This document shows positions 25,556-59,703 of a DNA stretch of 64,000 nucleotides, one piece after another; positions within the stretch are counted from its first letter, which is position 1, and every line of letters begins with the position of its first letter. This DNA comes from Runella defluvii (GTDB taxonomy: Bacteria; Bacteroidota; Bacteroidia; Cytophagales; Spirosomataceae), in assembly GCF_014195535.1 (NCBI RefSeq), contig NZ_JACIBY010000007.1:1-64000 (forward strand), read 5' to 3'. The notes beneath the pieces were generated by a model. The model saw only the letters and a program-made list of their open reading frames with translations, was not told the DNA's origin and did not search any database. Both the position numbers and the translations under genes were made by a program.

Positions 25556-25573
25556 TCGGTTTCTCAAAACCGA
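25556..25573. repeat. Single CTCA-loop hairpin, family member A
   Basis: TCGGTTT and AAACCGA pair perfectly over 7 bp around a CTCA loop. It lies in the divergent gap between the ECF sigma gene and elbB, so it is not a terminator for either. The same loop and GGTT...AACC core recur at 28517-28606, 55188-55362 and 59531-59660. Confidence 0.6.
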
Positions 25574-25644
25574 GTGAAGATTAGACCCAAGTTGATTTTG
25601 ACTTTTGGGGCGTAAAGTGTACTATTAAAACATAAAAAGAAAAT

Positions 25645-26328
25645 ATGAAAAAAATTGGCGTTTTGCTTCACGGAAGTGGGGTATTTGATGGCTCAGAAAT
25701 CCACGAATCGGTTTTTACGTTGTTGGCAATTGCTGAAGCAGGAGCTGAGGCGGTCTGTTTTGCGCCCAACGTAAATCAGCACCACGTGCTCAACCATACC
25801 ACGGGCGAAGAAATGCCCGAAATCCGCAATGTGTTGGTAGAATCGGCGCGAATTGCGCGGGGCAATATCAAAGACATTGTCGATATTCAGGCGTCGGAGT
25901 TGGATGGATTGGTAATGCCAGGTGGTTTTGGAACGGCCAAAAACATTACAAAATGGGCGTTTGAAGGGCCTGATGGGCCAATTTTGGAATCGGTGAAAAA
26001 CCTGATTGTGGAGCTAGTAGCCCAAGGAAAACCGATTGCGGGGTTATGTATGAGCCCCACGACCATTGCCAAAGCGTTGGAAGGAACAGCATACCACGCG
26101 CATTTGACCGTTGGAACGCCCAACGAAGCCTCTCCGTACGAAATCGCGGCCATTTCGGCAGGCATGGAGTCGATTGGACAAGTGGCAACAATGGCGTCGG
26201 TGCGAGAAATTGTGGTGGACGAAAAACTCAAAATTGTAACCGCTCCTTGTTACATGATGGAGGCGAACATTGTCGAAGTTCGTGATAACATCAAGCAGGC
26301 GGTGGACGCGCTGATTACATTGATGTAG
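25645..26328 (+). CDS. elbB: ElbB/DJ-1-PfpI family glyoxalase-like protein
   Basis: 227 residues, matching ElbB in length. The start KKIGVLLHGSGVFDGSEIHES and the nucleophile elbow AGLCMSP (Cys near residue 136) are characteristic; VMPGGFGTAKN lies before it. ElbB is a cytosolic DJ-1/PfpI-fold protein with weak glyoxalase activity, and its older name links it to isoprenoid synthesis without a firm role. It is monocistronic and shares a strong bidirectional terminator with terC. Confidence 0.93.
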   Translation: MKKIGVLLHGSGVFDGSEIHESVFTLLAIAEAGAEAVCFAPNVNQHHVLNHTTGEEMPEIRNVLVESARIARGNIKDIVDIQASELDGLVMPGGFGTAKNITKWAFEGPDGPILESVKNLIVELVAQGKPIAGLCMSPTTIAKALEGTAYHAHLTVGTPNEASPYEIAAISAGMESIGQVATMASVREIVVDEKLKIVTAPCYMMEANIVEVRDNIKQAVDALITLM

Positions 26329-26331
26329 TTA

Positions 26332-26371
26332 CCAACGAAAAAGGCGGCCATTCGGCCGCCTTTTTCGTTGG
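26332..26371. terminator. Bidirectional terminator between elbB and terC-like gene
   Basis: A perfect 18-bp inverted repeat (26332-26349 and 26354-26371) with a 4-nt loop ATTC and GGCGGCC core bordered by A5/T5 runs. Placed between two convergent stops (26328 and 26384). Confidence 0.95.
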
Positions 26372-26383
26372 AATTTATAGAAA

Positions 26384-27214
26384 TTATTCGCTTTCGTTGT
26401 CTGAGATAATACCTTCTTTTTCGGCTTGCGCTTTATAATCGTGAAGCTGAACAGGTTTGCTTCCCTTCCGCATTTGAATATTGAGTACTTCCACTAGCAA
26501 GGAGAATGCAATGGCAAAGTATAAATAACCTTTTGGAACTGAACCCACGTGCGAACCAAAGACAGATACGTTGGCAAGGTGCGCTCCTTCGGCAATGAGC
26601 ATAAATCCAATGGCAATCAAGAAGGCCAAACCGAGCATTTGCACCGACGGGTGGCGGTTGACAAAATCGCCAACAGGGCCTGAGAATGCCATCATAATAA
26701 TGACCGAAAGCACTACCGAAATAATCATTACTGTGACGTTTTGGGTAAGACCAATGGCCGTCAAAATGGAGTCAATCGAAAAAACGACGTTGATAAGTGC
26801 AATTTGCATGACCACATTTGTCAACTTGCTTGCGGCACTTCCTTTTGGTTTTTGAACTTCTTCTTCCGCACCTTCTAATTTATGGTGAATCTCTGAGGTA
26901 CTTTTGTACAACAAAAACAATCCTCCGACTACTAAAATGACACTTTGACCAGAAAAGGCCGCATGAAACCAGCCTGCGTCAATGTGCGTAAAGGGTTTTG
27001 ATAGAGAAATAATAAATGAAATTCCAAATAACAGCGTTACGCGAAAAATCATGGCCAACAACAAACCAATGTTACGTGCTTTGGGCTGGTCTTTGCGGGC
27101 AAGTTTGTTGGCAGCAATTGAAATAAAAATGATGTTGTCGATCCCCAAAACAATTTCTAGGAATGTAAGGGTTAACAAACTAACGATGGCCTCTGCAGTA
27201 AATAGTGAATCCAT
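26384..27214 (-). CDS. TerC-family integral membrane protein
   Basis: 276 residues with about seven to eight membrane helices. The hallmark FLEIVLGIDNIIFISI (residues 18-33) and FSIDSILTAIGLT (about 147-159) carry the conserved acidic residues of the TerC family, which exports metal ions (manganese in several studied members). A charged cytoplasmic loop around residue 125 (KLEGAEEEVQKPKG) separates the halves. Monocistronic. Ion specificity is not visible in the sequence. Confidence 0.92.
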   Translation of the reverse strand: MDSLFTAEAIVSLLTLTFLEIVLGIDNIIFISIAANKLARKDQPKARNIGLLLAMIFRVTLLFGISFIISLSKPFTHIDAGWFHAAFSGQSVILVVGGLFLLYKSTSEIHHKLEGAEEEVQKPKGSAASKLTNVVMQIALINVVFSIDSILTAIGLTQNVTVMIISVVLSVIIMMAFSGPVGDFVNRHPSVQMLGLAFLIAIGFMLIAEGAHLANVSVFGSHVGSVPKGYLYFAIAFSLLVEVLNIQMRKGSKPVQLHDYKAQAEKEGIISDNESE

Positions 27215-27319
27215 TTTGATAAATGAGTGAGTAAATAAGTTGTTTAGTTAAGAAAGTTCAAAATTGAAGGGCTATTCGGTTTCAATAAGCTAATTTTACA
27301 CGAAAAAACCAAACCCTCC

Positions 27320-28471
27320 ATGAGTGGTAAAAAAATAACCTCAAAACTTCCCAACGTTGGTACAACGATATTTACGGTAATGTCTGCTTTGGCGGCAGAA
27401 CACAAAGCCATTAACCTTTCGCAAGGTTTTCCTGATTTTGACATGCCCGATGATCTGGTCAATCTTACGTGCGAAGCACTGCAAAATGGCTATAATCAAT
27501 ATTCGCCCATGGCGGGTTGGATGCCATTGCGGGAGAGTATCGCTGCCAAAGTTCATGATTTGTACGGGGTTGAAATCAATCCTGATTCCGAAATTACCAT
27601 TACCCCTGGTGGAACATACGGGATTTATACGGCTTTTACCACCGTGTTACAGCCTGGCGACGAGGTAATTGTGTTTGAACCCGCCTACGATAGTTATATT
27701 CCCAATATTGAAATCAACGGTGGAGTGGCGGTTCGGATTCCGCTGGAGTTTCCGACCTATCGGATCAATTGGGAGTTGGTTCGGGCTAAAATTACGCCCC
27801 GCACCCGCATGATTGCGCTCAATACGCCTCACAATCCTACGGGCAGTATTTTGCGGGCTTCGGACATCGAACAACTGCGTCAGCTAGTGGAGGAATTTGA
27901 TTTGCTCATCATGTCTGACGAGGTGTATGAACATTTGATTTACGACGAAGAACCTCATCAAAGTATTTTGAGGTACGAAGATTTACGCCAACGGGCTTTC
28001 GTTAATTTTTCGTTTGGGAAGGTTTATCATTGCACAGGCTGGAAAATGGGGTATTGTATTGCGCCACCTGCGTTTACGGCTGAGTTTCGTAAAGTACACC
28101 AGTTTAATTGCTTTAGCTGTTATACCCCCGCCCAAGTTGCTTTGGCCGAGTACCTCAAAAACAAGGAGGCTTACCGTTCAATTTCTGGTTTTTATCAAAA
28201 GAAGCGTGATTATTTTGCCGAATTGATGAAACAAACGCGTTTCAAGCCCCTCCCGAGTTACGGTAGTTATTTTCAATTGTATTATTTCGATCACCTTTCC
28301 GATTTGTCCGACAAAGACTTTTCTATTTGGCTAACCAAAGAACACGGCGTGGCTTGCATTCCTGTTTCGGCATTTTACCAAGAAGCTATCGACAACGGTG
28401 TTGTGCGTTTTTGCTTTGCAAAAAAAGAAGAAACGCTCGACAAAGCGGTGGAAAGATTGGTGAAACTGTAG
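27320..28471 (+). CDS. Methionine aminotransferase (class I/II PLP aminotransferase, YbdL-like)
   Basis: 383 residues. Conserved NLSQGFPDFD near the start, NTPHNPTG, SDEVYEHLIYD (PLP-ring Asp and Tyr), the Schiff-base lysine K234 in FSFGKVYHCTGWK, and a C-terminal VRFCFAKKEETL with the carboxylate-binding Arg. The GFPDF start and SFGKVYHCTGWK segment place it with methionine/kynurenine aminotransferases of the KAT/YbdL group, which transaminate methionine in the salvage pathway. Cytoplasmic and apparently monocistronic. TAATTTTA at 27291-27298 could be a weak -7 element. Confidence 0.9.
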   Translation: MSGKKITSKLPNVGTTIFTVMSALAAEHKAINLSQGFPDFDMPDDLVNLTCEALQNGYNQYSPMAGWMPLRESIAAKVHDLYGVEINPDSEITITPGGTYGIYTAFTTVLQPGDEVIVFEPAYDSYIPNIEINGGVAVRIPLEFPTYRINWELVRAKITPRTRMIALNTPHNPTGSILRASDIEQLRQLVEEFDLLIMSDEVYEHLIYDEEPHQSILRYEDLRQRAFVNFSFGKVYHCTGWKMGYCIAPPAFTAEFRKVHQFNCFSCYTPAQVALAEYLKNKEAYRSISGFYQKKRDYFAELMKQTRFKPLPSYGSYFQLYYFDHLSDLSDKDFSIWLTKEHGVACIPVSAFYQEAIDNGVVRFCFAKKEETLDKAVERLVKL

Positions 28472-28484
28472 TAGTGTGTCAAAA

Positions 28485-28606
28485 TTGGGTTTCTCAAAAT
28501 ATCAGGCAAAAAGGGCGGGTTGTGAGCAACCCTTTGCACGATGCGCAACAAAGAAGGGGCGGGTTTTGAGAAACCCTTTGCACGATGATCGGGTTTTGAG
28601 AAACCC
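28485..28606. repeat. Cluster of CTCA-loop hairpins, family member B
   Basis: Three complete palindromes, each a 6-bp stem around TGAG (the complement of CTCA): 28517-28532 (GGGTTG/CAACCC), 28561-28576 and 28591-28606 (GGGTTT/AAACCC). A decayed copy with only its left half (GGGTTTCTCA, opposite orientation) lies at 28487-28496. The first two complete copies are each followed by TTTGCACGATG, so the repeated unit is longer than the hairpin. It fills the gap between two convergent genes and might also stop transcription. Confidence 0.7.
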
Positions 28607-28621
28607 TCAGCACACTCGACA

Positions 28622-29101
28622 TTACTTAATCACTCTCCGCACACCTACATATCTCTTTTTGTAATAGTCGGCATGAAGGACGTCGTAACGGATGCCGCCT
28701 TTCCAAGCTGAGTGGATGAATTTGACGTAGCCATCGCTAACGGCGACAATCATTCCGACGTGGCCAATACGGGCGCTTTTTGAGTTGCTTCCTTTGAAGA
28801 AAATTAAATCACCTGGACGTGCTTCGCCAAGGGCGATTTCGACGCCGTGGGAGATTTGGGCGGCGCTAGAATGGGGAAGGAGCATCCCAAATTTAGAAAA
28901 ACAGTATCGTACAAAACCTGAGCAGTCGAAGCCTTTGGGAGAACTCCCGCCTGAGCGGTAACGGTAGCTAAGGTGCTTTTTTGCAAATGACAGAATATCA
29001 GTCGTTAATGAGTTGGTTTGGGTCGAATCGACTGCTTGTTTTTGGGCAAAAGAAAAGGTCGATAAAAGGCATAATCCTAGAACAAAAATCCACTTCTTCA
29101 T
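28622..29101 (-). CDS. Exported NlpC/P60 cell wall hydrolase (C40 peptidase)
   Basis: 159 residues, close to the minimal single-domain form. The signal peptide ends TFSFAQ (mature Gln20). Catalytic triad C60 (KGFDCSGFV), H114 (RIGHVGMI) and H130 (KFIHSA). It cuts gamma-D-Glu to diamino acid bonds of peptidoglycan stem peptides in the periplasm. No SH3 or LysM targeting domain. Divergent from arsR with a shared 124-nt gap. No lipobox. Confidence 0.93.
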   Translation of the reverse strand: MKKWIFVLGLCLLSTFSFAQKQAVDSTQTNSLTTDILSFAKKHLSYRYRSGGSSPKGFDCSGFVRYCFSKFGMLLPHSSAAQISHGVEIALGEARPGDLIFFKGSNSKSARIGHVGMIVAVSDGYVKFIHSAWKGGIRYDVLHADYYKKRYVGVRRVIK

Positions 29102-29171
29102 CAGTTAGGTACTTTTTTATAGGGTTGAACGCTTCCCCAAGTAAGTAAAGAAAGTTTTGTTAGCCAAATTT

Positions 29172-29204
29172 TTTGAATTAAAATTTATATCGTAATATTG
29201 CGAT
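29172..29204 (+). promoter_or_regulatory. arsR promoter with overlapping ArsR operator 1
   Basis: TTTG (29172-29175) and TAATATTG (29193-29200, one base off TAnnTTTG) with a 17-nt spacer form a plausible promoter. Overlapping the -7 box is ATCGTAATATTGCGAT (29189-29204), a 16-bp palindrome with one wobble pair. The same motif recurs before arsM at 29571-29586, which supports autoregulation by ArsR. Confidence 0.75.
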
Positions 29205-29225
29205 GAATTAGCATTTTTACACCAA

Positions 29226-29552
29226 ATGGGAACAACAAAATCGGAGGTTTTTACCGAAGAAGAAAACCGAATTGCGGACTTGGCCAAGGCGTTTGCGCAT
29301 CCTGCCAGGGTGGCTATTTTGCGACTTTTAGCCGAGAAAAAAGCCTGCGTTTGTGGCGATTTGGTGGATGAATTACCGCTTTCCCAAGCCACAGTTTCGC
29401 AACATTTGAAGGAGCTGAAACGCATCGGCATCATCAAAGGGGACATTGCTCCACCGCGCGTTTGTTACTGCATCGACGAAGTTGTTTGGAACGAAGCAAT
29501 GCAGTCGTTTGGGCTGTTGTTTTCGTCGTACCTTAAAAATGATTGCTGCTAA
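29226..29552 (+). CDS. arsR: ArsR/SmtB-family metalloregulator
   Basis: 108 residues with a winged helix: [21 protein letters not shown], then [21 protein letters not shown] (recognition helix) and a short wing. A C41-V-C43 pair sits at the metal-binding helix, as in arsenite-sensing ArsR proteins, and two Cys end the protein. Without As(III) it should repress its own promoter and the following arsM gene, each of which has a matching palindrome. It is 51 nt upstream of arsM in this annotation. Confidence 0.92.
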
Positions 29553-29570
29553 AATTTTTTGCTTATATTT

Positions 29571-29586
29571 ATCGTAATATTACAAT
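29571..29586 (+). promoter_or_regulatory. ArsR operator 2, between arsR and arsM
   Basis: ATCGTAATATTACAAT matches operator 1 at 13 of 16 positions and fits the same palindrome consensus ATYGTAATATTRCRAT. It lies 18 nt before the arsM ATG at 29604, which argues against any start further upstream and suggests that arsM has its own ArsR-controlled promoter. Confidence 0.75.
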
Positions 29587-29603
29587 TGAAACCAATGCTT
29601 ACA

Positions 29604-30935
29604 ATGACAACAGACGAATCGCTCAAAAACTTGGTGCGTGAAAAATACACTGAGGTGGCTAATCAATCAAAGGATTTCAACGCGGCTTCTTGTTGTGGCT
29701 GTGGCCCAAGTTGTGAAACGGACGGCGAATTTTTGGGAATCATGGCCGAAGATTATACGAAATTAAGCGGATACGTGGCCGATGCCGACTTGGGCTTGGG
29801 ATGTGGGCTTCCTACCCAATTTGCCCAAATCAAAGAAGGCGATACGGTCATTGATTTAGGCAGTGGCGCGGGTAACGATGCCTTTGTAGCGCGGGCTGCA
29901 ACGGGGAATTCGGGCAAGGTGATTGGAGTGGACTTTACGGAAGCCATGATTGCCAAAGCACGGGCCAACGCCGAAAAATTGGGCTTCAATAACGTGGAGT
30001 TTCGCCAAGGGGATATTGAAGCGATGCCTGTTAGTGATAATGTCGCTGATGTGGTTGTGAGCAATTGTGTATTGAATTTGGTGCCGAACAAAGCCAATGT
30101 GTTCAAAGAAATTTACCGTACGTTGAAGCCTGGTGGGCATTTTAGTATTTCTGACATTGTGTTGGAAGGGGAACTGCCAGCGGGGCTACAACATGCCGCT
30201 GAAATGTACGCAGGCTGTGTGTCGGGGGCGATTCAGAAATCAGACTATTTGGGATTGATTGAAAAAACGGGATTTGTCAACATCACTCTTCAGAAAGATC
30301 GTGAAATTGTACTTCCTGATTCGATTTTGGCCGAATACATTTCGAGCGAAGAAATTGAGGCGTACCGTAAAGGGAATTTGGGAATTTACAGCATTACAGT
30401 TTACGCCGATAAACCATCGCCAGCGGCGGCAGAAATCCGAATTCGTACGGCAAAACCAACTGACAAAGAATCGGTTACGGAATTGTTGCAATCGGCAGGT
30501 CTGCCAACGGCAGATTTGAGTCCTGAACTTTCCAATTTCTTACTTGCATTTGTGGATGGTCAGCTGGTTGGTACGGCAGGAGTGGAGGTAACGGGCGACT
30601 ACGGACTTTTGCGTTCGGTAGCGGTGAAAGAGTCCTTTCGGAACTATAAAATTGCGCAACGTTTGGTCAATGATTTAACCAAACAAATGCGTTTGCAGTG
30701 GGTAAAAGAACTGTATTTAATCACAACAACGGCCGAAACCTATTTTGCGAAACAGGGTTTTGAAAAAGTAGAACGCACCGCTGTCCCTACTGAAATAGCA
30801 CAATCACAGCAGTTTAGCGGTCTATGCCCAAGTTCGGCCACGGTGATGAAGAAGTCGGTAGAGAAACCCAAAATCAAGCTGTTGGAGTTAGAACAAGCGT
30901 CGTCGTGTTGCACGCCCAATTCGGGTTGTTGTTAG
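29604..30935 (+). CDS. arsM: Fusion of arsenite methyltransferase ArsM and arsinothricin N-acetyltransferase ArsN1-like GNAT
   Basis: Start set at ATG 29604 (443 residues); ATG 29595 is possible. Residues 1-275 form an ArsM methyltransferase with the Cys cluster SCCGCGPSC, LGLGCGLPTQFA, the SAM site DLGSGAGNDAF and the second conserved Cys in YAGCVSGA. Residues about 280-415 form a GNAT domain (LLRSVAVKESFRNYKIAQRL, LYLITTTAETYFAKQGFE, FSGLCPSSATVM) like ArsN1, which acetylates the organoarsenical antibiotic arsinothricin. A Cys-rich tail (SSCCTPNSGCC) could bind As(III). One protein thus appears to handle inorganic arsenite and an arsenical antibiotic. A hairpin follows the stop. Confidence 0.88.
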   Translation: MTTDESLKNLVREKYTEVANQSKDFNAASCCGCGPSCETDGEFLGIMAEDYTKLSGYVADADLGLGCGLPTQFAQIKEGDTVIDLGSGAGNDAFVARAATGNSGKVIGVDFTEAMIAKARANAEKLGFNNVEFRQGDIEAMPVSDNVADVVVSNCVLNLVPNKANVFKEIYRTLKPGGHFSISDIVLEGELPAGLQHAAEMYAGCVSGAIQKSDYLGLIEKTGFVNITLQKDREIVLPDSILAEYISSEEIEAYRKGNLGIYSITVYADKPSPAAAEIRIRTAKPTDKESVTELLQSAGLPTADLSPELSNFLLAFVDGQLVGTAGVEVTGDYGLLRSVAVKESFRNYKIAQRLVNDLTKQMRLQWVKELYLITTTAETYFAKQGFEKVERTAVPTEIAQSQQFSGLCPSSATVMKKSVEKPKIKLLELEQASSCCTPNSGCC

Positions 30936-30961
30936 GATGTGCTTGGAACACGGATTGAATG

Positions 30962-30998
30962 GATTAAACGGGTTTTTGTGGATAGAATCCGTTTAATC
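30962..30998. terminator. Hairpin between convergent arsM and 30993-32504, possible terminator
   Basis: GATTAAACGG (30962-30971) and CCGTTTAATC (30989-30998) are perfectly complementary over 10 bp with a 17-nt loop, overlapping the stop of the minus-strand gene. Surrounding bases look like the ACGGATT-type intergenic filler common in Bacteroidota. Terminator function is plausible but unproved. Confidence 0.45.
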
Positions 30999-32504
30999 AA
31001 AATCGGTTTGATAGACTACTTTTCCCGTGTAGGAGTTGGATACTTTGACCCAATCTACGGAACCCGTTCCTTTAAACGTAAAACGAATATCGGTTAGGTT
31101 GAAAAAGTTTTCTCGGCCTTCATACTCGCCCTGAAATACCGAAATTCCATTGACAAACACTTCGACTTGCTTGCCCCTCAATTGGAGTTTAAAGGTATTC
31201 CATTCGTTGTGGTTTATCCCAAAATTATCTAAATCTACATTTTTGCCCTGTTGGAGGTTGCCTTTCCTGAAAATCGTTTTACCTACGATCAATTTGGCAT
31301 AATCGGAGCAACCCTTCATCGTAAATTCTGACTCGGCAATATTAAGGTGTTTATCAGTTAGCAAAATATCGGTATTAAAACAGCTTTCGCCGCCTTCATT
31401 TTCAGGGTTTTTCAGGCGGGCTTCTAAGGTCACACTATCAAGACGAAGACCGAAATCTTGCGTGAGTGCATACACGGAGTGGCGATAATCGTCTTCTCCT
31501 TTTATTTCGTTGGGTAATTCGCGCGGATCCAAATGAAGCACCCCATCGTTGATGTAGGTCTTAACAGTGCTGATGTTGGTCGTCCAATTCTTTTCGTACG
31601 CTACCCCAAAACCCCAAGCTGCCCATTGATTTGGATAAGAAAACACGGTATGATAGTCGGTTTTGATGTTGTGTTTATTGACCAATAAATTGAGACGATA
31701 GACCCCAGGGTAAAAATACGTTTGAGAAACTGTGTCACAAGGCTTGGCACTGCTCGTGATGTAACTGACGTAATTGTTTGCGGATACAATTCTCCCAACC
31801 CCCAAAATCAATTCTACGTCTCGAACGCGTTTAAGCGACTGTACATCGTACATAATACGAACCGATTGAGGATATTTTCCCACCGTTTTGATGACATTAA
31901 ACTGCACTCCTTTGACCTCTTCGGACGAAAAAGGTTGGCTTTGCCACCAATTAAAACTCAAATAAACAAGTACCGACACGGCCAGGATTCCCAAGAAAAT
32001 GGGTACGAATCTGGGGAGAGTGAATTTCGGTTTGATGACCTTAAATGTCGTGTATGGGCTGTCAGATAGCGGAATTATCTGCGTTTTACGAAGGGCGGGC
32101 AAAAACGATTCTTCGATATTGACGTAGTTGATGTGGATATTTTGGCGGTCGATTTCATTGTTTTTTTGTTGAAAGTCAGCCCAGTCGGCATAACCTAAAT
32201 AGACTGCTATGACGTTGCGGAAGCGGGTTTGGATACGAACTTCTTTAGTGCCGTATTCAAAAATAAAGCGGCGTAGAAAATCTTTGCTGAATAGTTCGTT
32301 TTTGCTTTCTCCGTTGGGATGTTGGTGTAAGACTTCCTCAATATCAGCCAGCAGAGTTTCCAAAAACGCATTTTTACTTTTAAGGGCTTCAAAACTGCTG
32401 AACTCCTCAAACTCCTTTTGCCATTTGGAAGGCCATTCATTGACAATCTGTTGCAAAAATTGTTCGCGAAGCTCGTGCAAGTAAATTTTGTCTTTAAGCA
32501 ACAT
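30993..32504 (-). CDS. Single-pass membrane protein with cytoplasmic N-domain and extracytoplasmic lectin-like domain
   Basis: 503 residues, function not recognised. Residues 1-155 are cytoplasmic, charged and helical, with a conserved-looking stretch FIFEYGTKEVRIQTRFRNVI and YLGYADWADFQQ. One membrane helix covers about 165-185. The outer part has an Ig/PKD-like region (about 200-290) and then a concanavalin-type jelly roll (about 310-495: LEARLKNPENEGG, HNEWNTFKLQLRGKQVEVFVNG, ending DWVKVSNSYTGKVVYQTDFD), as in LamG or DUF1080 proteins. A trans-membrane sensor that binds glycans outside is one reading; the sequence does not settle it. Confidence 0.75.
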   Translation of the reverse strand: MLLKDKIYLHELREQFLQQIVNEWPSKWQKEFEEFSSFEALKSKNAFLETLLADIEEVLHQHPNGESKNELFSKDFLRRFIFEYGTKEVRIQTRFRNVIAVYLGYADWADFQQKNNEIDRQNIHINYVNIEESFLPALRKTQIIPLSDSPYTTFKVIKPKFTLPRFVPIFLGILAVSVLVYLSFNWWQSQPFSSEEVKGVQFNVIKTVGKYPQSVRIMYDVQSLKRVRDVELILGVGRIVSANNYVSYITSSAKPCDTVSQTYFYPGVYRLNLLVNKHNIKTDYHTVFSYPNQWAAWGFGVAYEKNWTTNISTVKTYINDGVLHLDPRELPNEIKGEDDYRHSVYALTQDFGLRLDSVTLEARLKNPENEGGESCFNTDILLTDKHLNIAESEFTMKGCSDYAKLIVGKTIFRKGNLQQGKNVDLDNFGINHNEWNTFKLQLRGKQVEVFVNGISVFQGEYEGRENFFNLTDIRFTFKGTGSVDWVKVSNSYTGKVVYQTDFD

Positions 32505-32564
32505 AAACCAGTGAGTGATAGGGTAAAGGTGAATAAATATACCCTTTGCAAAATCTTTTGCAAA

Positions 32565-32604
32565 AATAAATCCTTGGCAAACTTGATTTTGCCAAGGATT
32601 TATT
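32565..32604. other. Strong hairpin in a divergent intergenic region
   Basis: A perfect 17-bp inverted repeat (32565-32581, 32588-32604) with a 6-nt loop CTTGAT. It lies between the starts of two divergent genes, where a terminator is not needed. It might be an attenuator or mRNA-stabilising leader for the gene at 32651, or a binding site. No promoter box was found nearby. Confidence 0.6.
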
Positions 32605-32650
32605 CTGTGCTGGGCTTTATTTCATGCCTTGAAACTCATCATTAATCCTC

Positions 32651-33790
32651 ATGAAAAAAACAGCTGCTTTCCTTCTGGTTCTATTTTTTGTCGCTTTTAC
32701 CGCTTTTGGACAGAGTGTTACGCTAACCCCCACCACGGATAAGCAGCTTACCTTGACTGCGGCGGGGGTAGCAGTACCCAACATTACCGGGCAACGATCG
32801 GATGGGACATCGGCAGCACCGACTGCTTTACCGAGCGGTGCCTGGATGATGAGTATCTATGGACGAGGCTATAATGGCAGTGGATATTCCACTAACGCCA
32901 GCTCGGCCATTACTTTTGGCGCCGCCCAAGACTTCACCCCCACGGCAAACGGCTCCAATATTCAATTTTATACGACCCTTTTGAATACGCTCTCCACTCA
33001 GGAAAGAATGAGGATTGACCACAATGGCAGAGTAGGGATTGGACTAATTAACCCAGCTACCACTCTGGATGTAAACAGCCCTTCAAATTTTATTGCTAAA
33101 TTCAATGGAGTGGGTGCACAAACGTATATAGCCCTTCATGAAAATGGAGTCTATCGCGGCTATTTGGGTTCCTTTGCTGGTGCTGCCGAAGATGTTGATT
33201 TTGGGACGGGCAACGGTACAACAGGAAAACTGCATTTGACCATAAAAGCCATTCCTCGACTCACCATTGACACAACGGGCAATGTGGGTATTGGGACAAG
33301 TATCTTCGCAACAGGCGAAAAATTTGCAGTGAGAAATGGTACAACGCAATTTGGGATATTCCCAGGGTATTTTGATGCCATCCCAGACGCCAACTGGACT
33401 ACTTTTAAAACACCCTTGAGGATTCAGAATGATTTTTCAGTGAGTGGTAGGATAACCACCAATAATGCATTAGATGTAAATGGCTTTTCAAAATTAGGCA
33501 ATGATGCCCCTGCCATCAAGGTGAAGAAATTGACAGGTACTACGGGGGCAGCACAGGGAGATATAATTCCTATCAGTCACGGGCTTACGAGCACAAAAAT
33601 ACTGTCAATTACTGTGTTGGTTCAATTTGAGACAAATGGGCAGTATGTCCCTCATTCTTATACAAATACGAATGGGTACCAATTTGATTTTTTTTCAGAT
33701 GCAACTAATATTCAGATCCGAAACCACCCCACAAACAGCGGTCAAATTTTATCAAAACCGATTAAAATCATGATTACGTATGAGCAGTAA
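32651..33790 (+). CDS. Exported tail-fibre-like / head-domain protein of unknown function
   Basis: 379 residues with a signal peptide ending AFGQ (mature Gln). The body is Thr/Asn/Gly-rich with motifs such as ERMRIDHNGRVGIGLINPATTLDV and LTIDTTGNVGIGTS, seen in trimeric tail-fibre and adhesin-like proteins of Bacteroidota. The last ~100 residues form a different domain (LGNDAPAIKVKKLTGTTGAA onwards). No T9SS sorting domain. No other phage gene is nearby, so it is not evidence of a prophage. Probably a secreted structural or adhesive protein; function unknown. Confidence 0.75.
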   Translation: MKKTAAFLLVLFFVAFTAFGQSVTLTPTTDKQLTLTAAGVAVPNITGQRSDGTSAAPTALPSGAWMMSIYGRGYNGSGYSTNASSAITFGAAQDFTPTANGSNIQFYTTLLNTLSTQERMRIDHNGRVGIGLINPATTLDVNSPSNFIAKFNGVGAQTYIALHENGVYRGYLGSFAGAAEDVDFGTGNGTTGKLHLTIKAIPRLTIDTTGNVGIGTSIFATGEKFAVRNGTTQFGIFPGYFDAIPDANWTTFKTPLRIQNDFSVSGRITTNNALDVNGFSKLGNDAPAIKVKKLTGTTGAAQGDIIPISHGLTSTKILSITVLVQFETNGQYVPHSYTNTNGYQFDFFSDATNIQIRNHPTNSGQILSKPIKIMITYEQ

Positions 33791-33795
33791 AGAAG

Positions 33796-33818
33796 AGAGG
33801 GGTTATTGAACCCCTTTT
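33796..33818. terminator. Bidirectional terminator between convergent genes
   Basis: AGGGGTT (33798-33804) and AACCCCT (33809-33815) pair over 7 bp with loop ATTG and a following T4. It overlaps the stop codon of the minus-strand gene at 33803 and follows the stop at 33790. Confidence 0.7.
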
Positions 33819-34207: not shown

Positions 34208-34230
34208 TGTTAATAAATAAAAAGATAGAG

Positions 34231-35139: not shown

Positions 35140-35168
35140 TGGATTTAAAGGATAGGGTTTGAGTCATA

Positions 35169-37114: not shown

Positions 37115-37117
37115 ACC

Positions 37118-48432: not shown

Positions 48433-48451
48433 ACTAGAGAATTATTCTACA

Positions 48452-49360: not shown

Positions 49361-49384
49361 AATGACTGCTTTGTAAATAAAATG

Positions 49385-49436: not shown

Positions 49437-49470
49437 TAAAAAAGATACCCACGCGTTTTAATCTAAACGC

Positions 49471-50271: not shown

Positions 50272-50286
50272 GGTTTTGCTATGATT

Positions 50287-51932: not shown

Positions 51933-52047
51933 GCAGAGATATACCAAAACAAAATGCCCTTATTTGTAATTTTTCCAAAGATTTAATACTTTGCCTAAGA
52001 ATTCTCAGTTATACATAGTAAGAAACCACTTTAACATTTCAATCACC

Positions 52048-52542: not shown

Positions 52543-52562
52543 GTAACCTTTTAATACTTTTG

Positions 52563-52616
52563 AAGGTTAGGAAGTTAGGAAAACGTTGCTTTTCTTTACT
52601 TTCTAACCTTTTTTCA
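52563..52616 (+). terminator. Terminator after the lipoprotein gene
   Basis: AAGGTTAGGAAGT (52563-52575) pairs with ACTTTCTAACCTT (52598-52610) with one G-T pair, a 22-nt loop, then a run of T. Confidence 0.75.
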
Positions 52617-52635
52617 TTTTAATAATCCACATCTT

Positions 52636-55176
52636 ATGAAGCGTCAATGGTGTTTGTGGTGGTTGGGGATGATGTTGATGGTTTCGGGAGTATATGCCAA
52701 CGACCAGCAACGGTATTTGGCTTATCTTCAACTCAATTTGAGTCGGGCAGCGGATGCTGAACTCGACATGATGGAAGAGGCCGTAAAGGCGGGCTGTAAT
52801 GCCGTTCACTTAACGATACATTGGGATTACGTGTATCCTTCGGCCACCTCTCAGCCCGATTGGAAAAAATACGATAGCCAAATTGCGTTGGCCCAGAAAT
52901 TGGGCGTAAAAGTCGCGTTGCGTATTTATTTGGGCCGCAATGAGGGCAGAATTGCAGGTTTTATGTCCAATGACGAACGGCAGCGCGACCAGCATGGCCG
53001 TGCGTTGGTATCGGGCTATGCGAGTACGTATTTTAGCTTTGCAAGTCAGCCAGCGGTTGATAAAGGCAATAGTTTTATCAAAGAAGTATGCGAGCGATAT
53101 AAAACTGCGCAAGAGCAAGGCATTATTTCTTGGGTATCGGTGTGTCTAACTCCTACGCAAGAAACGGGTTATTTTTTCGAAAATTCGTCAGAGGGGTATC
53201 CTCACCCCACGGTGTTTGATTATTCGCCCGCCATGAAGCGAGAGTTTCGGATTTGGCTAAGTCGAAAATACACCAAAATCGCCCGTCTCAATGTCTTTTG
53301 GCAAACCGATTACAAAGACTTTCAAGATGTGGAACCCCAAACGGCTTTGGCCAATCGCGACCAAGTATTTTGGGGGCAGGCGGGAAAAGATTGGTACGTG
53401 TTTCGGCATGCTATTTTTAAGCAGTTTATCGAACAAACAACCCGCACCATCAAAAATGTGCATTCGGGCTACCGCGTCATTACAGATTTTGGTTCAGTCT
53501 TTGACCAACTCAGCGCGGTTTGTGGCAGTGTGGCGTTCAGAGATTTAAACGCAGGAACGGATGGGGTGAAAATCAACAACGACGTTCGCTACGACCACCG
53601 TTTTTCGATGGATATTCTGCGAAGCAATGTATTGCCAAATCAGTGGATTTTGAATGAAGTTTTTCCCGATTTTAGGGCACAAAAAGCAAGTGATCTCATT
53701 ACCAAGCAATTTGACGAAAGCTACGCCCACGGCGCACGCTGGATTAGTGTGGTACTTGGTACAAAAGAAGTATTGGAGCAAGCCAAACCTATTCTAAAAA
53801 GTACAGCAACTAAGTGGTTGTCAGCTCCTTTTGTCGATGTATTGCCCAAGGATTACATGACCTACAATCTTTCTCGGGTGTTGGAGTTTGGCTATTTTAG
53901 TGGAGGGGTTTATGGGGAATGGGCCAATCGCGCAGGGCCAGAGTCAAATCGAAGCCCAGTGAATATTCGGATGGTCGAAGATATTTTGGCTGATTCGCTG
54001 CAAGGAGCGATTAATCGCCCGCCTTATGTCAAAAACGCACTACCTACCAAGACCATTAAAGTCAACTCTCCCTTTTCTTATCGCTTGAGCTCGGAGGTGT
54101 TTGTGGACGTCGATGGTGCCATAAGTAGTGTCGTACTGCAAGGACAACCGTCATGGCTTAGGTTTTCTAATGGTATTTTTTCAGGAACGCCGACCCAAAC
54201 GGGAATTTACACTTTTACCGTTCGAGCCACCGACGACGACGGGGCGACGGTTGAAACAACCTTTACGATTATTGTCGATAATTTAGGCCGTTTTAATCAA
54301 GCACCGACGCTTCGCAAACGTATCTCTAATGCTGTAGGGTTGTACAAACAACCCTTTATTTTTTCAATTTCAGACAGCACATTTGTTGATTCAGATGGTT
54401 TTATTAGTCGAATGGAAGTCATTGGTTTGCCTGGATGGGCGCAGTACCGCAAAGGAGAAATTCGTGGTTTGGCGGATACTGTTGGTGTGTATTCGTTGCG
54501 GGTAAGGGGGTATGACGACGAAGATGCGGTCGTTGAAACATCTTTTACCATCACCATCAATTACCCCACGGTTTACTTTGATTTAATCCAAGCGGGAAAA
54601 CCTGGACAGCGATTTTTGATCAAACGGTTGCAGCCCAAAGAACAATTGTTGCAACACCAATTGCCAACGGCGGTCAATGTGTATGCCAATTGCGATGCCG
54701 TTTTTGATGCTTTTGATTTGGAAATTACGGGTGCGCAGTACCAAAAAACATCTACAACAAGCTCTCCTTTTTCGCTTTATGAAGGAGATGCTGGCCTTCC
54801 CGTGACGGCAGGGAAGTATTTTTTGAGAGGCAAGGCTTATTTTCGTAAACAACTGATTGCGTCAACAGAATATGAATTGGAGTTTTTGCCCTCAGATCCA
54901 GTCTCAAAACAACCTATTTCGGTAGAAGATTGGTCGGTATTCCCAAATCCAGCCACTGATTTTGTCCATCTCAAACACCCCTCTGGCAAATTGTTGTCTC
55001 CTCGTTTTGTGACGCTTTTGGGGCAGGAAATCACTGTTCCTGAAGAAACAATGTACCGCTCAGGGACGCAAATTTCGTTCAATTTGCGGCAGCTGCGGCT
55101 TGGTGCAGGCATTTATTTCTTAAAATTACAACTCGAAGATGCCACCTGGAAAGTGTTTCGCGTTGTCAAGTATTAA
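52636..55176 (+). CDS. T9SS-secreted glycosidase-like protein with two cadherin-like Ig repeats (paralog 1)
   Basis: 846 residues. Signal peptide (MVSGVYA). Residues ~25-440 are a TIM-barrel like GH42/GH5 enzymes; candidate catalytic Glu residues are in TPTQETGY and ILNEVFPDF, both kept in the next gene. Two putative-Ig (He_PIG/cadherin-like) repeats follow, each ending in a DDDGATVETTF / DDEDAVVETSF pattern. Then a ~100-residue domain begins FDLIQAGKPGQRFLI, and a T9SS sorting domain ends the protein (VFPNPATDF, then GIYFLKLQ). A surface polysaccharide hydrolase is likely, substrate unknown. Gene duplication with the downstream neighbour is evident. Confidence 0.85.
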   Translation: MKRQWCLWWLGMMLMVSGVYANDQQRYLAYLQLNLSRAADAELDMMEEAVKAGCNAVHLTIHWDYVYPSATSQPDWKKYDSQIALAQKLGVKVALRIYLGRNEGRIAGFMSNDERQRDQHGRALVSGYASTYFSFASQPAVDKGNSFIKEVCERYKTAQEQGIISWVSVCLTPTQETGYFFENSSEGYPHPTVFDYSPAMKREFRIWLSRKYTKIARLNVFWQTDYKDFQDVEPQTALANRDQVFWGQAGKDWYVFRHAIFKQFIEQTTRTIKNVHSGYRVITDFGSVFDQLSAVCGSVAFRDLNAGTDGVKINNDVRYDHRFSMDILRSNVLPNQWILNEVFPDFRAQKASDLITKQFDESYAHGARWISVVLGTKEVLEQAKPILKSTATKWLSAPFVDVLPKDYMTYNLSRVLEFGYFSGGVYGEWANRAGPESNRSPVNIRMVEDILADSLQGAINRPPYVKNALPTKTIKVNSPFSYRLSSEVFVDVDGAISSVVLQGQPSWLRFSNGIFSGTPTQTGIYTFTVRATDDDGATVETTFTIIVDNLGRFNQAPTLRKRISNAVGLYKQPFIFSISDSTFVDSDGFISRMEVIGLPGWAQYRKGEIRGLADTVGVYSLRVRGYDDEDAVVETSFTITINYPTVYFDLIQAGKPGQRFLIKRLQPKEQLLQHQLPTAVNVYANCDAVFDAFDLEITGAQYQKTSTTSSPFSLYEGDAGLPVTAGKYFLRGKAYFRKQLIASTEYELEFLPSDPVSKQPISVEDWSVFPNPATDFVHLKHPSGKLLSPRFVTLLGQEITVPEETMYRSGTQISFNLRQLRLGAGIYFLKLQLEDATWKVFRVVKY

Positions 55177-55187
55177 TCAAGTGAAAA

Positions 55188-55362
55188 GGGTTGTTCACAA
55201 CCCGTATTTCAAGTGTAGAGGGTTGCTCACAACCCGTATTTCAAGTGTAGAGGGTTGCTCACAACCCGTATTTCGAGTGTAGAGGGTTGCTCACAACCCG
55301 TATTTCGAGTGTAGAGGGTTGCTCACAACCCGTATTCAAGTGTCAAGGGTTGCTCACAACCC
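55188..55362. repeat. Tandem array of six CTCA-loop palindromes, family member C
   Basis: Six copies of GGGTTG-NTCA-CAACCC start at 55188, 55220, 55252, 55284, 55316 and 55347: a 32-bp period with the last step 31. The 16-nt linkers (core GTATTTCGAGTGTAGA) are also repeated, so this is a tandem repeat and not a CRISPR array. The first copy has loop TTCA instead of CTCA. It lies between the two T9SS glycosidase-like paralogs and ends 15 nt before the second ATG. Confidence 0.92.
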
Positions 55363-55377
55363 ACTTATTATTCCAAA

Positions 55378-58300
55378 ATGATAAAAATAGTAGGAATTTG
55401 GTTAGGAGTGATTTGGGCTACGATGGCGGTTGCACAGCAGGGAGCGCAACAGCGATACGTAGGTTTGCAGCTGTTGAATCTAAATGCCGAACCAGATTAT
55501 GGCGCCGACATCATCGAGCAGTCAGTAGGAGCGGGGGCCAATTTAGTCGTATTGACGATTTATTGGGATGAAGTATATAAAACGGCCACCTCACAACCCG
55601 ATTGGCGACAGCCCGACCGCCAAATGGAACAAATTGCACGGCTGGGCGTGAAAGCGGGCATCCGCATTATGCTTGGACGGAAAATAGAACGGCTTCAGGG
55701 TTTTTGGACGCTGAACGAAACCATGAACGATGATTTAGGACGACCGCTTTGGGGGGCGTACGGGCGAACCTGCTTTAGCTTTGCCCACGCTCCAACAGTG
55801 ACCAAAGCCCAAAGTTTTTTAAAAGAAGTATGCCAACGCTATAATGCCTATCAGTCGCAAGGAACTATCTTGTACGTGACTTTTGTCAATACCCCAACCC
55901 AAGAGCTTGGCTATCATTACGAGACAGAATTAAACGGTGATTACAAACAGGTGTATCCCACAGGTTTTGACTATTCGTCGCCCTCCTTGGAGGCATTTAA
56001 AGGTTGGATTACGCAGCAGTATAAGCGCATCAATAAACTCAACTACATTTGGGGAGCCAAATTTACGTCCCTCAACGACGTTCGACCGCCAACGACTGCT
56101 TATCGCCCTTTGCCTGCGTACCGAACCCGCGCGGGCAAAGATTGGTATTTGTTTTCGCACCTCCAGCTTAAAAACTTTATTGACCAAAGCATTCGTACCA
56201 TTAAACAGGTGAATCCGTCGTATAAAGTGGTCAATGAATACGGCGCGGTGATTGACGTACAAGCCGCTGTTCGGGGTACAATTGCCTTTAAAAATTTGGA
56301 CGAAAACGCCGACGGAACCAAGGTGCATAATGACCTTTATTGGAATCACCGTTTTATTACGGATGTGGTTCGGTCTAATCGTCCAGGGAAATGGATAATG
56401 AACGAAACGTTCTTTTCGCCCGTCTATTCGGACGATTTGCTCATCAAACATTTTGATGAATGTTTTGAAAACGGCTGTAATGTCGTGACCATGGTGGCAA
56501 GTACAAAAGATGCCCGTTTGTCGTCCATTTTTGGTCCAGTGGCAGCACGATGGAAAAATAGACCTTGGAGTGAACTAAGGAGCAACGCGACCATAACTTA
56601 CAAAGCAACCGAAGTACTCGACTCGACTTCAACAATCGTAGAAAAAGCGTGGAGAACCCATCCGCAGCCATCGCCCATTGATGTAAAATTAGAAGAGGAT
56701 ATTTTGGGCGAAGACTATTGGCGAATTTTGGCGGCCAATGTCTATCCAGTCGTAGCAAATCCAATCATTGACCGCGCCACAAAACCTAAAAAGACGTATT
56801 CTTACACCTTGCCCAAAGACGTTTTTTTAGACCCTGACGGTGAAATCGTGACCATCGAAGCCCTTGAAAAACCGCAGTGGTTGACGTTCTCAAATGGTAC
56901 ATTTACGGGCACAGTGCCCGATCAACTTGGAGAGTCAAAAATTACTTTGCGGGCAATCGACGATGAAGGAGCAACGGTGCAAACGAGTTTTTTGCTTAAA
57001 ATAGTGAATGTCAATCAAAAACCTGTCGTCAAGCGAACCCTTCCCGATTTTGAATCTTCGCTTAATCAAACCATTTCGTACCCGATTCAGGGTGATATTT
57101 TTGATGACCCCGACGGCGTGATTGTTCGCACTCAGGCCATCGGTTTACGACCTTGGATGTCGTTCAATTCAAAAGAGTTTTCGGCGTATCCACAAGAACA
57201 AGGTACGTTTACGATTACGTTGCGCGGCATTGATGACGACAGTGCATACGCGGAGACTTCTTTTAAAGTGAAAATCCTAAATCGGTCGCCGATTGTCAAA
57301 CAGTTGTTGCCCGAAAAAACAATTGCTCAGAATAAAGCTTTTCGTTTCAAAGTCCCGACTTCTATTTTCACCGATCCTGATGGACAAATCACGAAAGTAA
57401 AAGCGGTAGGACTTCCTGCGTGGCTTACCTACGATGCCGCTACAAGCACGTTGACAGGAACGCCAACGCAATTGGGAACCTATCAATTAGGAATTCGGGC
57501 TTACGACAATGGGGGCGATTCGGTCGAGACAGCTTTTGTTATCAAGGTGGATTTGTACGGAACTCAAAATGTGCCTCCCGTGCTCAGATACACGCCTCCC
57601 AACGCCCAATTGTACGTAACCCAGCGTTTTTCATATAAAGTTTCAGACTCACTTTTTTATGATACCAATGGGTACGTCGATCGAATCGAAGCCCCGAATT
57701 TGCCGTCTTGGCTAACGTTTAAAAACAATGAAATTTCGGGAATAGCGAACGCTGCAGGGATGTATTCGGTGACCTTACGAGCAGTGGACGATGACGAAAC
57801 TTCAACTTCAACCACCTTCAACATAGAAGTAAAACAGGCTCAGTTGAGTTTTGAGCTGATTCAGGCAGGAAAAGCGGGGTTGCGAAAAAGTTTGGGAATT
57901 TTGAAAAATGGCGATGTTTTAACAGAGGCTACGCTGCCCCAAAGCATTACCGTGTATGCCAATAGTGAAGCCCCCGCTACCAAGGTGGATTTTGTGCTCC
58001 GAGGGCCGTATTCAAAAAATTATACAGCAACGCGCTTCCCTTTTACCCTTTTTGATGAAGAAATGGGTTTTGCACCAATCGCAGGTCGGTATGTTTTAGA
58101 GGCAGTTGCTTTTAATGATTCGGCCAAAGTGAGCGCCGCCACCATCCAATTTACGGTAAAATCAGATCAAACATTGCAAGATTGGGAAGCCTATCCAAAT
58201 CCGTTTGATCGGGTATGCAATGTGAAACTACCCAAAGATTTGGAATTGGCATCGGTCGAGTATCAACTATTGACTGTGACGGGAAGTAGTTTGCCGTTGA

Positions 58301-58437
58301 ACAAGTCAACCGTTACGGTGGTAGAAGAGACAGCTTACATTGATATGACGTCATTGGCTTTGCCCAAAGGAACGTATTTTCTCAAAATCTTAGAAAGTGG
58401 TTCTCTCAAAAAAATCATTAAAATCCTCAAACTGTAA
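55378..58437 (+). CDS. T9SS-secreted glycosidase-like protein with four cadherin-like Ig repeats (paralog 2)
   Basis: 1019 residues, paralogous to the preceding gene. Signal peptide ends AVAQ, mature Gln. The TIM-barrel (about 22-440) keeps candidate catalytic residues in TPTQELGY and IMNETFFSP. Four Ig repeats follow (about 460-820), against two in paralog 1, so repeat number has changed since duplication. Next come the FELIQAGKAGLRKSL domain and a T9SS sorting domain (AYPNPFDRV, GTYFLKILESG). The ATG is 15 nt after the palindrome array, so the array occupies the leader. Expected role is surface polysaccharide breakdown or binding. Confidence 0.86.
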   Translation: MIKIVGIWLGVIWATMAVAQQGAQQRYVGLQLLNLNAEPDYGADIIEQSVGAGANLVVLTIYWDEVYKTATSQPDWRQPDRQMEQIARLGVKAGIRIMLGRKIERLQGFWTLNETMNDDLGRPLWGAYGRTCFSFAHAPTVTKAQSFLKEVCQRYNAYQSQGTILYVTFVNTPTQELGYHYETELNGDYKQVYPTGFDYSSPSLEAFKGWITQQYKRINKLNYIWGAKFTSLNDVRPPTTAYRPLPAYRTRAGKDWYLFSHLQLKNFIDQSIRTIKQVNPSYKVVNEYGAVIDVQAAVRGTIAFKNLDENADGTKVHNDLYWNHRFITDVVRSNRPGKWIMNETFFSPVYSDDLLIKHFDECFENGCNVVTMVASTKDARLSSIFGPVAARWKNRPWSELRSNATITYKATEVLDSTSTIVEKAWRTHPQPSPIDVKLEEDILGEDYWRILAANVYPVVANPIIDRATKPKKTYSYTLPKDVFLDPDGEIVTIEALEKPQWLTFSNGTFTGTVPDQLGESKITLRAIDDEGATVQTSFLLKIVNVNQKPVVKRTLPDFESSLNQTISYPIQGDIFDDPDGVIVRTQAIGLRPWMSFNSKEFSAYPQEQGTFTITLRGIDDDSAYAETSFKVKILNRSPIVKQLLPEKTIAQNKAFRFKVPTSIFTDPDGQITKVKAVGLPAWLTYDAATSTLTGTPTQLGTYQLGIRAYDNGGDSVETAFVIKVDLYGTQNVPPVLRYTPPNAQLYVTQRFSYKVSDSLFYDTNGYVDRIEAPNLPSWLTFKNNEISGIANAAGMYSVTLRAVDDDETSTSTTFNIEVKQAQLSFELIQAGKAGLRKSLGILKNGDVLTEATLPQSITVYANSEAPATKVDFVLRGPYSKNYTATRFPFTLFDEEMGFAPIAGRYVLEAVAFNDSAKVSAATIQFTVKSDQTLQDWEAYPNPFDRVCNVKLPKDLELASVEYQLLTVTGSSLPLNKSTVTVVEETAYIDMTSLALPKGTYFLKILESGSLKKIIKILKL

Positions 58438-58470
58438 GCAAAAGTGAGCATTTACATGCCAAACTTGCCT

Positions 58471-58478
58471 TACTTTTG
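58471..58478 (+). promoter_or_regulatory. -7 element of the glutaminyl cyclase gene
   Basis: TACTTTTG is a perfect TAnnTTTG box, 29 nt before the ATG at 58508. No exact -33 TTTG is seen. Confidence 0.5.
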
Positions 58479-58507
58479 TACTTTCAAAAAAATAGAAAAT
58501 CAACTCC

Positions 58508-59512
58508 ATGTTTAAATCAACCAAGTGGGTGGTAGCTGCAATGGCGTCAATAACGCTTTGGAATTGTGGTACCAGTACAGATTCATCGACTTCAGAACAA
58601 ACAACCGCATCTTCGACGTCCAGCCTTGTAAAAGCTCCTGCGTTTAACGGAGATTCTGCCTATAAATACATTGATAATCAGGTGAAATTTGGGCCACGAG
58701 TGCCTAATTCGTCGGCCCACGTGAAGTGTGGAGATTACTTGGTGGCAGAGCTGAAACGCCTTGGGTGTACGGTGACAGAACAAAAATTTACGGCAACGCA
58801 TTACGACGGCTCAAAACTCAATGCCCGCAATATCATTGGGAGTATCAATCCGCAAGCCACCAAGCGAATTTTGTTGGCGTCGCACTGGGACAGTCGCCCC
58901 GTAGCTGATGAAGACCCGACCAATAAAAAAGGAGCCATCGACGGTGCTAACGACGGCGCTAGTGGCGTAGGTGTACTCATTGAACTAGCCAGGGTGATTC
59001 AGCAGGCAGCTCAAAAACCATCGGTAGGGGTTGATATTATGTTTTTTGATGTAGAAGACGGTGGCAATGCCGCAGTCGCCAAAGATAAATTTACGGGATT
59101 TTGCCTAGGCTCGCAGTATTGGGCGGCCAACAAACACGTCCCCAATTATACGGCCTATTACGGAGTATTGTTAGACATGGTAGGGGCAAAGGGTGCAACG
59201 TTTCCTAAGGAAGCATTCTCAAATCAATATGCGGGAGAAATTACGCGCACTATTTGGAACATCGCAGGCCAGCTTGGGTACAGTTCGTATTTTATTCAAG
59301 AAGATGGAGCTGCCATCACTGACGACCATTTGCCAGTAAACGAAACGGCTAAAATTCCGATGGTTGATATTATTCATTTGCAAATGAACAACCCTACCAA
59401 AACGTTTTTTGACGCGTGGCATACCCACACGGACGACATGCGGAACATTGACCCAACAACGCTCAAGGCCGTTGGTCAAACTTTAGTGCAAGTGCTGTAC
59501 CAAGAACAATAA
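58508..59512 (+). CDS. Lipoprotein glutaminyl-peptide cyclotransferase (M28 fold)
   Basis: 334 residues, lipobox ending at Cys20, so anchored in the envelope. Zinc-binding and catalytic positions: ASHWDSRP, GANDGASGVGVLIELAR, FFDVEDGG, and the late DAWHTHTDDM. These are the motifs of type II bacterial glutaminyl cyclases (as in Porphyromonas), which convert N-terminal Gln to pyroglutamate, rather than of M28 aminopeptidases. Many exported proteins in this window have Gln at the first mature position and would be its substrates. Hairpin repeats follow the gene. Confidence 0.87.
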   Translation: MFKSTKWVVAAMASITLWNCGTSTDSSTSEQTTASSTSSLVKAPAFNGDSAYKYIDNQVKFGPRVPNSSAHVKCGDYLVAELKRLGCTVTEQKFTATHYDGSKLNARNIIGSINPQATKRILLASHWDSRPVADEDPTNKKGAIDGANDGASGVGVLIELARVIQQAAQKPSVGVDIMFFDVEDGGNAAVAKDKFTGFCLGSQYWAANKHVPNYTAYYGVLLDMVGAKGATFPKEAFSNQYAGEITRTIWNIAGQLGYSSYFIQEDGAAITDDHLPVNETAKIPMVDIIHLQMNNPTKTFFDAWHTHTDDMRNIDPTTLKAVGQTLVQVLYQEQ

Positions 59513-59530
59513 AACCCTTCACGGTAACGT

Positions 59531-59660
59531 GCTTTCGGTTTCTCACAACCGAAAGCTTGCGCCGAGGTTTAGTTCGCAGTGGGCCGCGGTTATAAGTAAC
59601 CGCTTGCACGGAATGTGCTTTCGGTTGCTCACAACCGAAACCGTGGTCACTCATAACCAC
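59531..59660. repeat. CTCA-loop hairpin cluster, family member D
   Basis: Two complete copies with CTCA: 59531-59556 (stem GCTTTCGGTT) and 59619-59640 (stem TTTCGGTTG). A third copy with a changed loop (TAAG) lies at 59586-59603 (stem GCGGTTA) and a fourth, CTCA-containing but with a longer loop, at 59642-59661 (stem CGTGGT). Stems differ from those at the other loci yet stay complementary. The cluster fills the gap between the glutaminyl cyclase and the next gene. Confidence 0.75.
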
Positions 59661-59703
59661 GAAAACCAAAATGAGAAAGCGTAGTTTTAATTAAAAAAGA
59701 CCA

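Follow-up and report, generated by a model that had tools for sequence, protein, structure and literature searches.

The first 64,000 nucleotides of contig NZ_JACIBY010000007.1 of Runella defluvii, referred to here as the window, carry short hairpins of the general form GGTTN-CTCA-NAACC in several intergenic gaps. What are these hairpins, and how did they come to lie in so many places? They form a high-copy family with a characteristic anatomy, are associated with one particular transposase gene elsewhere in the genome, and differ in presence and copy number among related genomes. Very probably they are repetitive extragenic palindrome (REP) elements of a REPtron in Runella (Bacteroidota), spread most likely by P0001, a REP-associated tyrosine transposase (RAYT).

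Size of the hairpin family

The core pattern GGTTNCTCANAACC has 11 exact matches in the window. With up to two mismatches allowed there are 22 matches, compared to a mean of 5.86 and a maximum of 12 in 100 shuffles. When the GTG found upstream is included, at the same tolerance, 13 matches remain against 0.14 expected. The genome of the window (G000; 7.99 Mb in 50 contigs) contains 530 exact copies (258 + 272), whereas about 0.9 copies are predicted from the base composition and the backwards control of the pattern has none genome-wide. A count of hairpins with a 4-base loop and 6-base arms in 864 kb, on both strands, gave 866, including 154 that are masked N; the most frequent loops are CTCA and, as its complement, TGAG, with 65 counts each.

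The initial annotation had proposed a dispersed palindrome family from four loci. The motif is present at all four, the family is mostly outside open reading frames (ORFs), and its frequency is far above chance in the window and in the genome. The gap types had also been read correctly: according to a mechanical ORF list, the locus at 25556 lies in a divergent gap, that at 28485-28606 in a convergent gap and the remaining two in tandem gaps. The family is a short palindrome of high copy number, as REP elements are.

Since the palindromic core has a fixed sequence and recurs 530 times in the genome, it could also be a binding site in double-stranded DNA, either an operator or a chromosome-organising site. 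This is scarcely credible, because such a site leaves unexplained the compensatory changes in the outer stem, the one-sided foot, the cluster around the RAYT gene and the range from 0 to 530 copies inside one genus, all of which are described below.

Anatomy of the unit

The anatomy was derived from 66 distinct copies, taken from the window and from contigs C1 and C2 (the first 400 kb of each). The unit runs from GTG and one further base through four variable bases of the stem and GGTTN to the CTCA loop, followed by NAACC and a matching arm. In 45 of the 66 copies the first base of GTG lies exactly 8 positions ahead of GGTT, and each of the other offsets from -20 to -1 accounts for at most 5. 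CAC at the mirror position is found in two copies. All 11 exact copies in the window have GTG at -8, as do 348 of the 530 copies genome-wide. The base after the GTG foot is T in 18 copies, C in 17, A in 9 and G in 1, the remainder of the 66 being other. Because the foot, which the initial annotation did not mention, is one-sided, the element is strand-specific. The reverse-complemented loops noted in that annotation are mostly just elements on the opposite strand.

Between GTG-plus-one and GGTT lie four bases whose partners are the four that follow AACC; pairing is seen in 59, 41, 40 and 45 of the 66 copies (from the inner to the outer position, G-T included), compared to only 22, 25, 23 and 31 at the next four positions beyond the stem. 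In 64 distinct copies, 7, 23, 26 and 19 are unpaired at the four outer positions. The outer stem covaries: 132 cells are changed on both sides, compared to 56.6 (standard deviation 5.5) in shuffles, none of 500 of which reaches 132. The covariation score is 0.43 compared to 0.105 in shuffles, and drops to 0.03-0.13 if the partners are slid by 1-3 columns. Two other counts in the 64 copies have no excess, namely pairs with changes on both sides (5, with 5.0 in shuffles) and further pair types (17, with 19.5 in shuffles). GGTT, CTCA and AACC are invariant in these copies because the search pattern fixed them. The complementary stem changes reported earlier are thus confirmed, but selection on the folded form, which they had been taken to suggest, need not follow, because covariation would also arise if subfamilies were amplified or if one arm served to correct the other.

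When nothing but GTG and a 9-base stem (one mismatch allowed) was fixed in the search, 47 hairpins were found at the -8 offset, compared to 3-10 at eleven other offsets. The loop of these hairpins is CTCA in 29, CTCC in 8 and CTTA in 5, and 37 of them have GGTT in the stem. The loop variant GGTTACTCCTAACC occurs in 10 copies in the window and the first 400 kb of C1 and C2, with GTG at -8 in 9 of them, and is possibly a subfamily.

The probable partner gene

Seven genes of G000 match the Pfam family Y1_Tnp. One of these, at C4:567261-567848 and outside the window, encodes P0001 and has 30 exact hairpins within 2 kb, of which 18 lie to one side of the gene and 12 to the opposite side. A transposase gene with flanks similar to the hairpin loci, which the initial annotation had suggested as a lead, therefore exists in this genome. 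P0001 scores 101.3 bits against NF047646, the NCBIfam model of the REP-associated tyrosine transposase (cut-off 80), and 27.7 against Y1_Tnp (cut-off 23). Its HuH and catalytic tyrosine residues are H77, H79, Y153, N157 and P158. In 24 aligned proteins H77 is present in at least 90%, and the other four residues are invariant. A profile of 24 relatives matches TnpA-REP 4er8 at 5.4e-9, whereas P0001 as a single query reaches only 0.095.

Syntenic orthologues with 95% and 94% identity are found in two genomes of the genus, G075 and G095, with flanks of about 88-92%. The dN/dS values of the RAYT gene among the three genomes are 0.12, 0.07 and 0.06, and judged by these substitution rates the gene is under purifying selection in all three.

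The presence of seven Y1_Tnp matches in the genome also suits an explanation in which an insertion sequence of the IS200/IS605 type, or a miniature inverted-repeat transposable element moved by another transposase, left the hairpins as its relics or ends. Six of the seven genes, however, have no hairpin, even by a loose pattern, in flanks of up to 1.5 kb, and the seventh is the RAYT gene itself. The IS200-type genes were consequently rejected as the source. No larger element with hairpins at both ends was noticed, although no systematic search for one was made. This origin of the hairpins is highly unlikely.

Occurrence in related genomes

The joint occurrence of hairpins and gene was examined in 200 genomes of the family, with orthologues defined by an E value below 1e-30. 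At least 10 hairpins are found in 11 of the 12 genomes with a close P0001 orthologue, compared to 10 of the 188 others; the Fisher value of 1e-11 overstates the support this gives, since the genomes are akin and the threshold of 10 hairpins was set post hoc. The 13 genomes of the genus have 530, 448, 438, 68, 62, 59, 37, 37, 29, 1, 0, 0 and 0 copies, and an intact close orthologue is found only in the three with 530, 448 and 438. Broken or partial orthologues are present in G103, G129 and G134, which have 37, 68 and 59 copies; this would be consistent with relics. Two of the three orthologues are at contig ends, so that the assembly may contribute to their state.

The orthologues in five genomes of a second genus, g5 (G136, G154, G172, G004 and G145), have 1 to 4 exact copies in their flanks. 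GTG stands at -8 in 319 of 448 copies in G075, 293 of 438 in G095, 39 of 62 in G031 and 61 of 76 in G145. In the other six of the seven g5 genomes the foot is scarce at this position: 2 of 33 copies in G004, 3 of 38 in G136, 5 of 113 in G154, 7 of 85 in G163, 7 of 48 in G172 and 9 of 108 in G190. Of 41 copies at loci of g5, 12 have the start of GTG at -4 and 4 have it at -8. The -8 foot thus characterises the Runella family and a single g5 genome rather than every carrier. Many g5 copies have an extra conserved arm resembling TTCTTAAACCTGACA upstream, and copies are arranged in inverted pairs.

Copies in the window and their orthologous gaps

The putative REP copies in the window are as follows.

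25550..25575, plus strand: REP copy in the divergent gap, with GTGT foot, AGTC, core GGTTTCTCAAAACC and GAGT; G075 has it as GGTTACTCAAAACC and G095 lacks it
28488..28501, plus strand: degenerate copy, core with 2 mismatches, from the mismatch search
28514..28539, minus strand: REP copy in the convergent gap, GTGC foot and core GGTTGCTCACAACC, from the motif and foot scan
28558..28583, minus strand: REP copy in the convergent gap, GTGC foot and core GGTTTCTCAAAACC, from the motif and foot scan
28588..28613, minus strand: REP copy in the convergent gap, GTGC foot and core GGTTTCTCAAAACC, from the motif and foot scan
55181..55365, plus strand: array of six REP copies with start-to-start spacings of 32, 32, 32, 32 and 31; the first core is GGTTGTTCACAACC (1 mismatch) and the five others are exact
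59529..59554, plus strand: REP copy, GTGC foot and core GGTTTCTCACAACC, folding into a 10-bp stem with a 6-base loop
59584..59609, minus strand: REP copy, GTGC foot and core GGTTACTTATAACC (CTTA loop), from the motif scan and folding
59615..59640, plus strand: REP copy, GTGC foot and core GGTTGCTCACAACC, with a nine-pair stem
59645..59658, plus strand: variant copy lacking the GTG foot, core GGTCACTCATAACC (1 mismatch), from the mismatch search

Folding of eight window stretches with copies as single-stranded DNA resulted in z-scores of -1.8 to -7.1. For the weakest of the eight, 11 of 200 shuffles fold equally well.

Each of the gaps differs between relatives. The element in the gap 25438-25644 is present in G075 and absent in G095 (flanks 91-94%); only one flank was found in the other genomes. 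The convergent gap has three exact copies in G000 and two in G075, and no hairpin in the nine other genomes in which both flanks were found, four of which have more than 1 kb of other sequence there. At the place of the array at 55181 there are six copies in G000, two in G075, two in G095 (one with a flipped loop) and none in G129. The last gap, with the copies at 59529-59658, is also occupied in G075, G095 and G129 but holds no copy in nine other genomes. The last hairpin of the array (window 55340-55365) corresponds, within the same flanks, to GGTTGCTTACAACC in G075 and GGTTATAAGCAACC in G095, both then followed by CACTTATTA, so that the loop is flipped between these two genomes. Contig C13 of G095 ends inside the orthologue of a convergent-gap hairpin, near 181884 of 181914, and the other flank is on C2; hairpin repeats of this kind probably break assemblies.

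Placement in the genome

In the window and 800 kb of further sequence, ORFs of at least 90 amino acids, used as a stand-in for genes, contain 12 of 68 copies, and the other 56 are outside them. Eight of the 12 copies inside ORFs are at a single place, C2:228056-228643. The family is mostly extragenic, which is the second property it shares with REP elements. The 30 occupied gaps comprise 16 tandem, 12 convergent and 2 divergent ones, compared to 311, 75 and 88 among all 474 gaps, so that convergent gaps are enriched in copies (P 0.0008) and divergent gaps depleted (P 0.06).

This placement would fit a reading of the hairpins as RNA signals, that is terminators, 3'-end stabilisers or processing sites maintained by selection on the transcript, with the RAYT link being secondary. 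The covariation of the outer stems suits such signals as well, and hairpins constitute three of the six terminator-like sites in window 55100-59800. The total of six in that region is, however, no excess over the 6.1 in shuffled sequence, and no T-rich tail follows the stem across the 66 copies; on these two grounds intrinsic terminators were rejected. Nor do RNA signals account for the one-sided GTG foot, or for the frequent lack of the hairpin from orthologous gaps within the genus. No Rfam family reaches its gathering score within the window. RNA signals are accordingly an improbable explanation, and the RNA-processing site offered in the initial annotation is not supported in view of the missing Rfam match, the foot and the position of the RAYT gene inside a hairpin cluster. 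The hairpins may have an added effect on transcripts beside a role as REP elements.

Comparison with known systems

In the available passages of PMC6006769, TnpA-REP subclass 2.6, which is RAYT group 5, comes mostly from Bacteroidetes. Its genes are described there as lying between atypical hairpins that lack GT[AG]G, were found by manual inspection and have copies elsewhere in the genome. The Runella system agrees with this account in its Bacteroidota host and in having hairpins without GTAG that flank the gene and recur elsewhere. The subclass motifs given there, NH[LIV]H, YIH[QN]NP and SS, have counterparts in P0001 as NHIH, YMHNNP (M for I) and FSSAKF. As in the subclass, P0001 has an insert of about 21 residues between alphaC and beta4 relative to 4er8 (K99-W132 compared to K82-W94); the first piece of the pairwise alignment behind this insert is not significant, and the same 21 residues are obtained from the match of the 24-relative profile. 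Unlike the subclass as those passages describe it, the spacing from HuH to Y is 74 rather than the reported median of 82, and there is a clear foot of GTG plus one base at a fixed distance. P0001 fits subclass 2.6, or RAYT group 5, in most of the motifs though not in all, and is likely a member.

As far as the available parts of PMC3733652 and PMC8266576 describe canonical REPs, the Runella elements resemble them in having a 5' foot beside an intergenic palindrome, with one strand marked, and in their patchy copy number and clusters at the RAYT gene. They differ in the foot, where GTG precedes T, C or A in place of the canonical GTAG or GTGG, and in the CTCA loop; the 66 copies lack the GT[AG]G type as their rule, GTGG being found in 1 of 66. 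Pairs of copies 5-34 bases apart recall the inverted doublets described for REPINs in the accessible part of PMC3116915. The ratio of pairs with 3' ends facing to pairs with feet facing is 37:0 in G154, 31:0 in G190, 20:0 in G163 and 15:0, 7:0, 5:1 and 13:1 in the remaining g5 genomes. Unlike REPINs, the copies of G000 form pairs of both types (50:25), and others stand alone or in direct arrays like the one at 55181-55365. The ratios are 39:25 in G075 and 35:27 in G095.

Several observations weigh against a REP family spread by P0001. GTG at -8 is lacking in 182 of the 530 copies of G000, besides being scarce in the six g5 genomes listed above. Copies numbering 11-108 occur where there is no close orthologue, in G031, G039, G050, G063, G148, G163, G169, G175, G184 and G190. 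The orthologue in G040 has an internal stop and that genome has 0 copies. Absence from an orthologous gap may be loss, and W132 of P0001 is followed by D (WD) in place of the WQ motif reported for subclass 2.6.

The GTG foot, the RAYT gene inside a dense hairpin cluster and the lack of an Rfam match together argue for recognition of single-stranded DNA. By analogy with known traits of the RAYT family, recognition, cutting, strand choice and movement would all be due to P0001, acting as a RAYT (TnpA-REP, a HuH-Y1 single-strand nuclease). In single-stranded DNA, the foot, core and loop of the folded unit are most likely what the protein recognises, and it would cut beside the unit, with copies spreading to further intergenic sites, chiefly near gene ends. 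Local growth of arrays, such as that at 55181-55365, is probably due to slippage or recombination.

A rather unlikely variant of this scheme is that a group-5 RAYT with a code of its own (GTG foot, GGTTN-CTCA core and free outer stem) rewrites resident hairpins in place. The idea arises because outer stems recode symmetrically and the loop flips at an unchanged site. If it were true, hairpin-templated conversion would shape the copies as much as transposition does.

REP elements spread by a RAYT are of a kind already known, and the Runella family illustrates it clearly in a branch that has been little described. No account of REPs from Runella or Spirosoma was found in the literature searched. 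The 'undescribed palindromic element' of the initial annotation is new at most as the GGTT-CTCA family, since REP/RAYT systems are well described and subclass 2.6 with its atypical hairpins has been published (PMC6006769). With a clear consensus, more than 500 copies, a RAYT gene in conserved synteny, copy numbers from 0 to 530 in sister species and orthologous sites that are empty in some relatives, the family allows recognition and spread to be tested in a REPtron from outside the Proteobacteria. It is also a caution that covariation of intergenic hairpins may stem from mobile DNA and not from RNA function alone.

A second RAYT in the genome

A second RAYT, P0002, is encoded at C2:562156-562623 and has 100 bits to the REP-associated tyrosine transposase model. 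The repeats around it (G000:C2:561414-562836) are of the AGGCTGGAAGCCT and GAGGC...GCCTC types. This repeat family has 17 exact pattern matches in G000, 9 of which are at the P0002 gene, and is absent from the 64-kb window. P0002 was rejected as the partner of the GGTT-CTCA hairpins because another repeat family surrounds it, with no member in the window. Its separate family agrees with the statement, in the part of PMC6006769 available, that each tnpA-REP accompanies its own REP family. Further RAYT-like stretches that score under the NF047646 cut-off are found at G000:C11:178-612, C9:223325-224056, C3:362998-363162 and C1:854492-854884.

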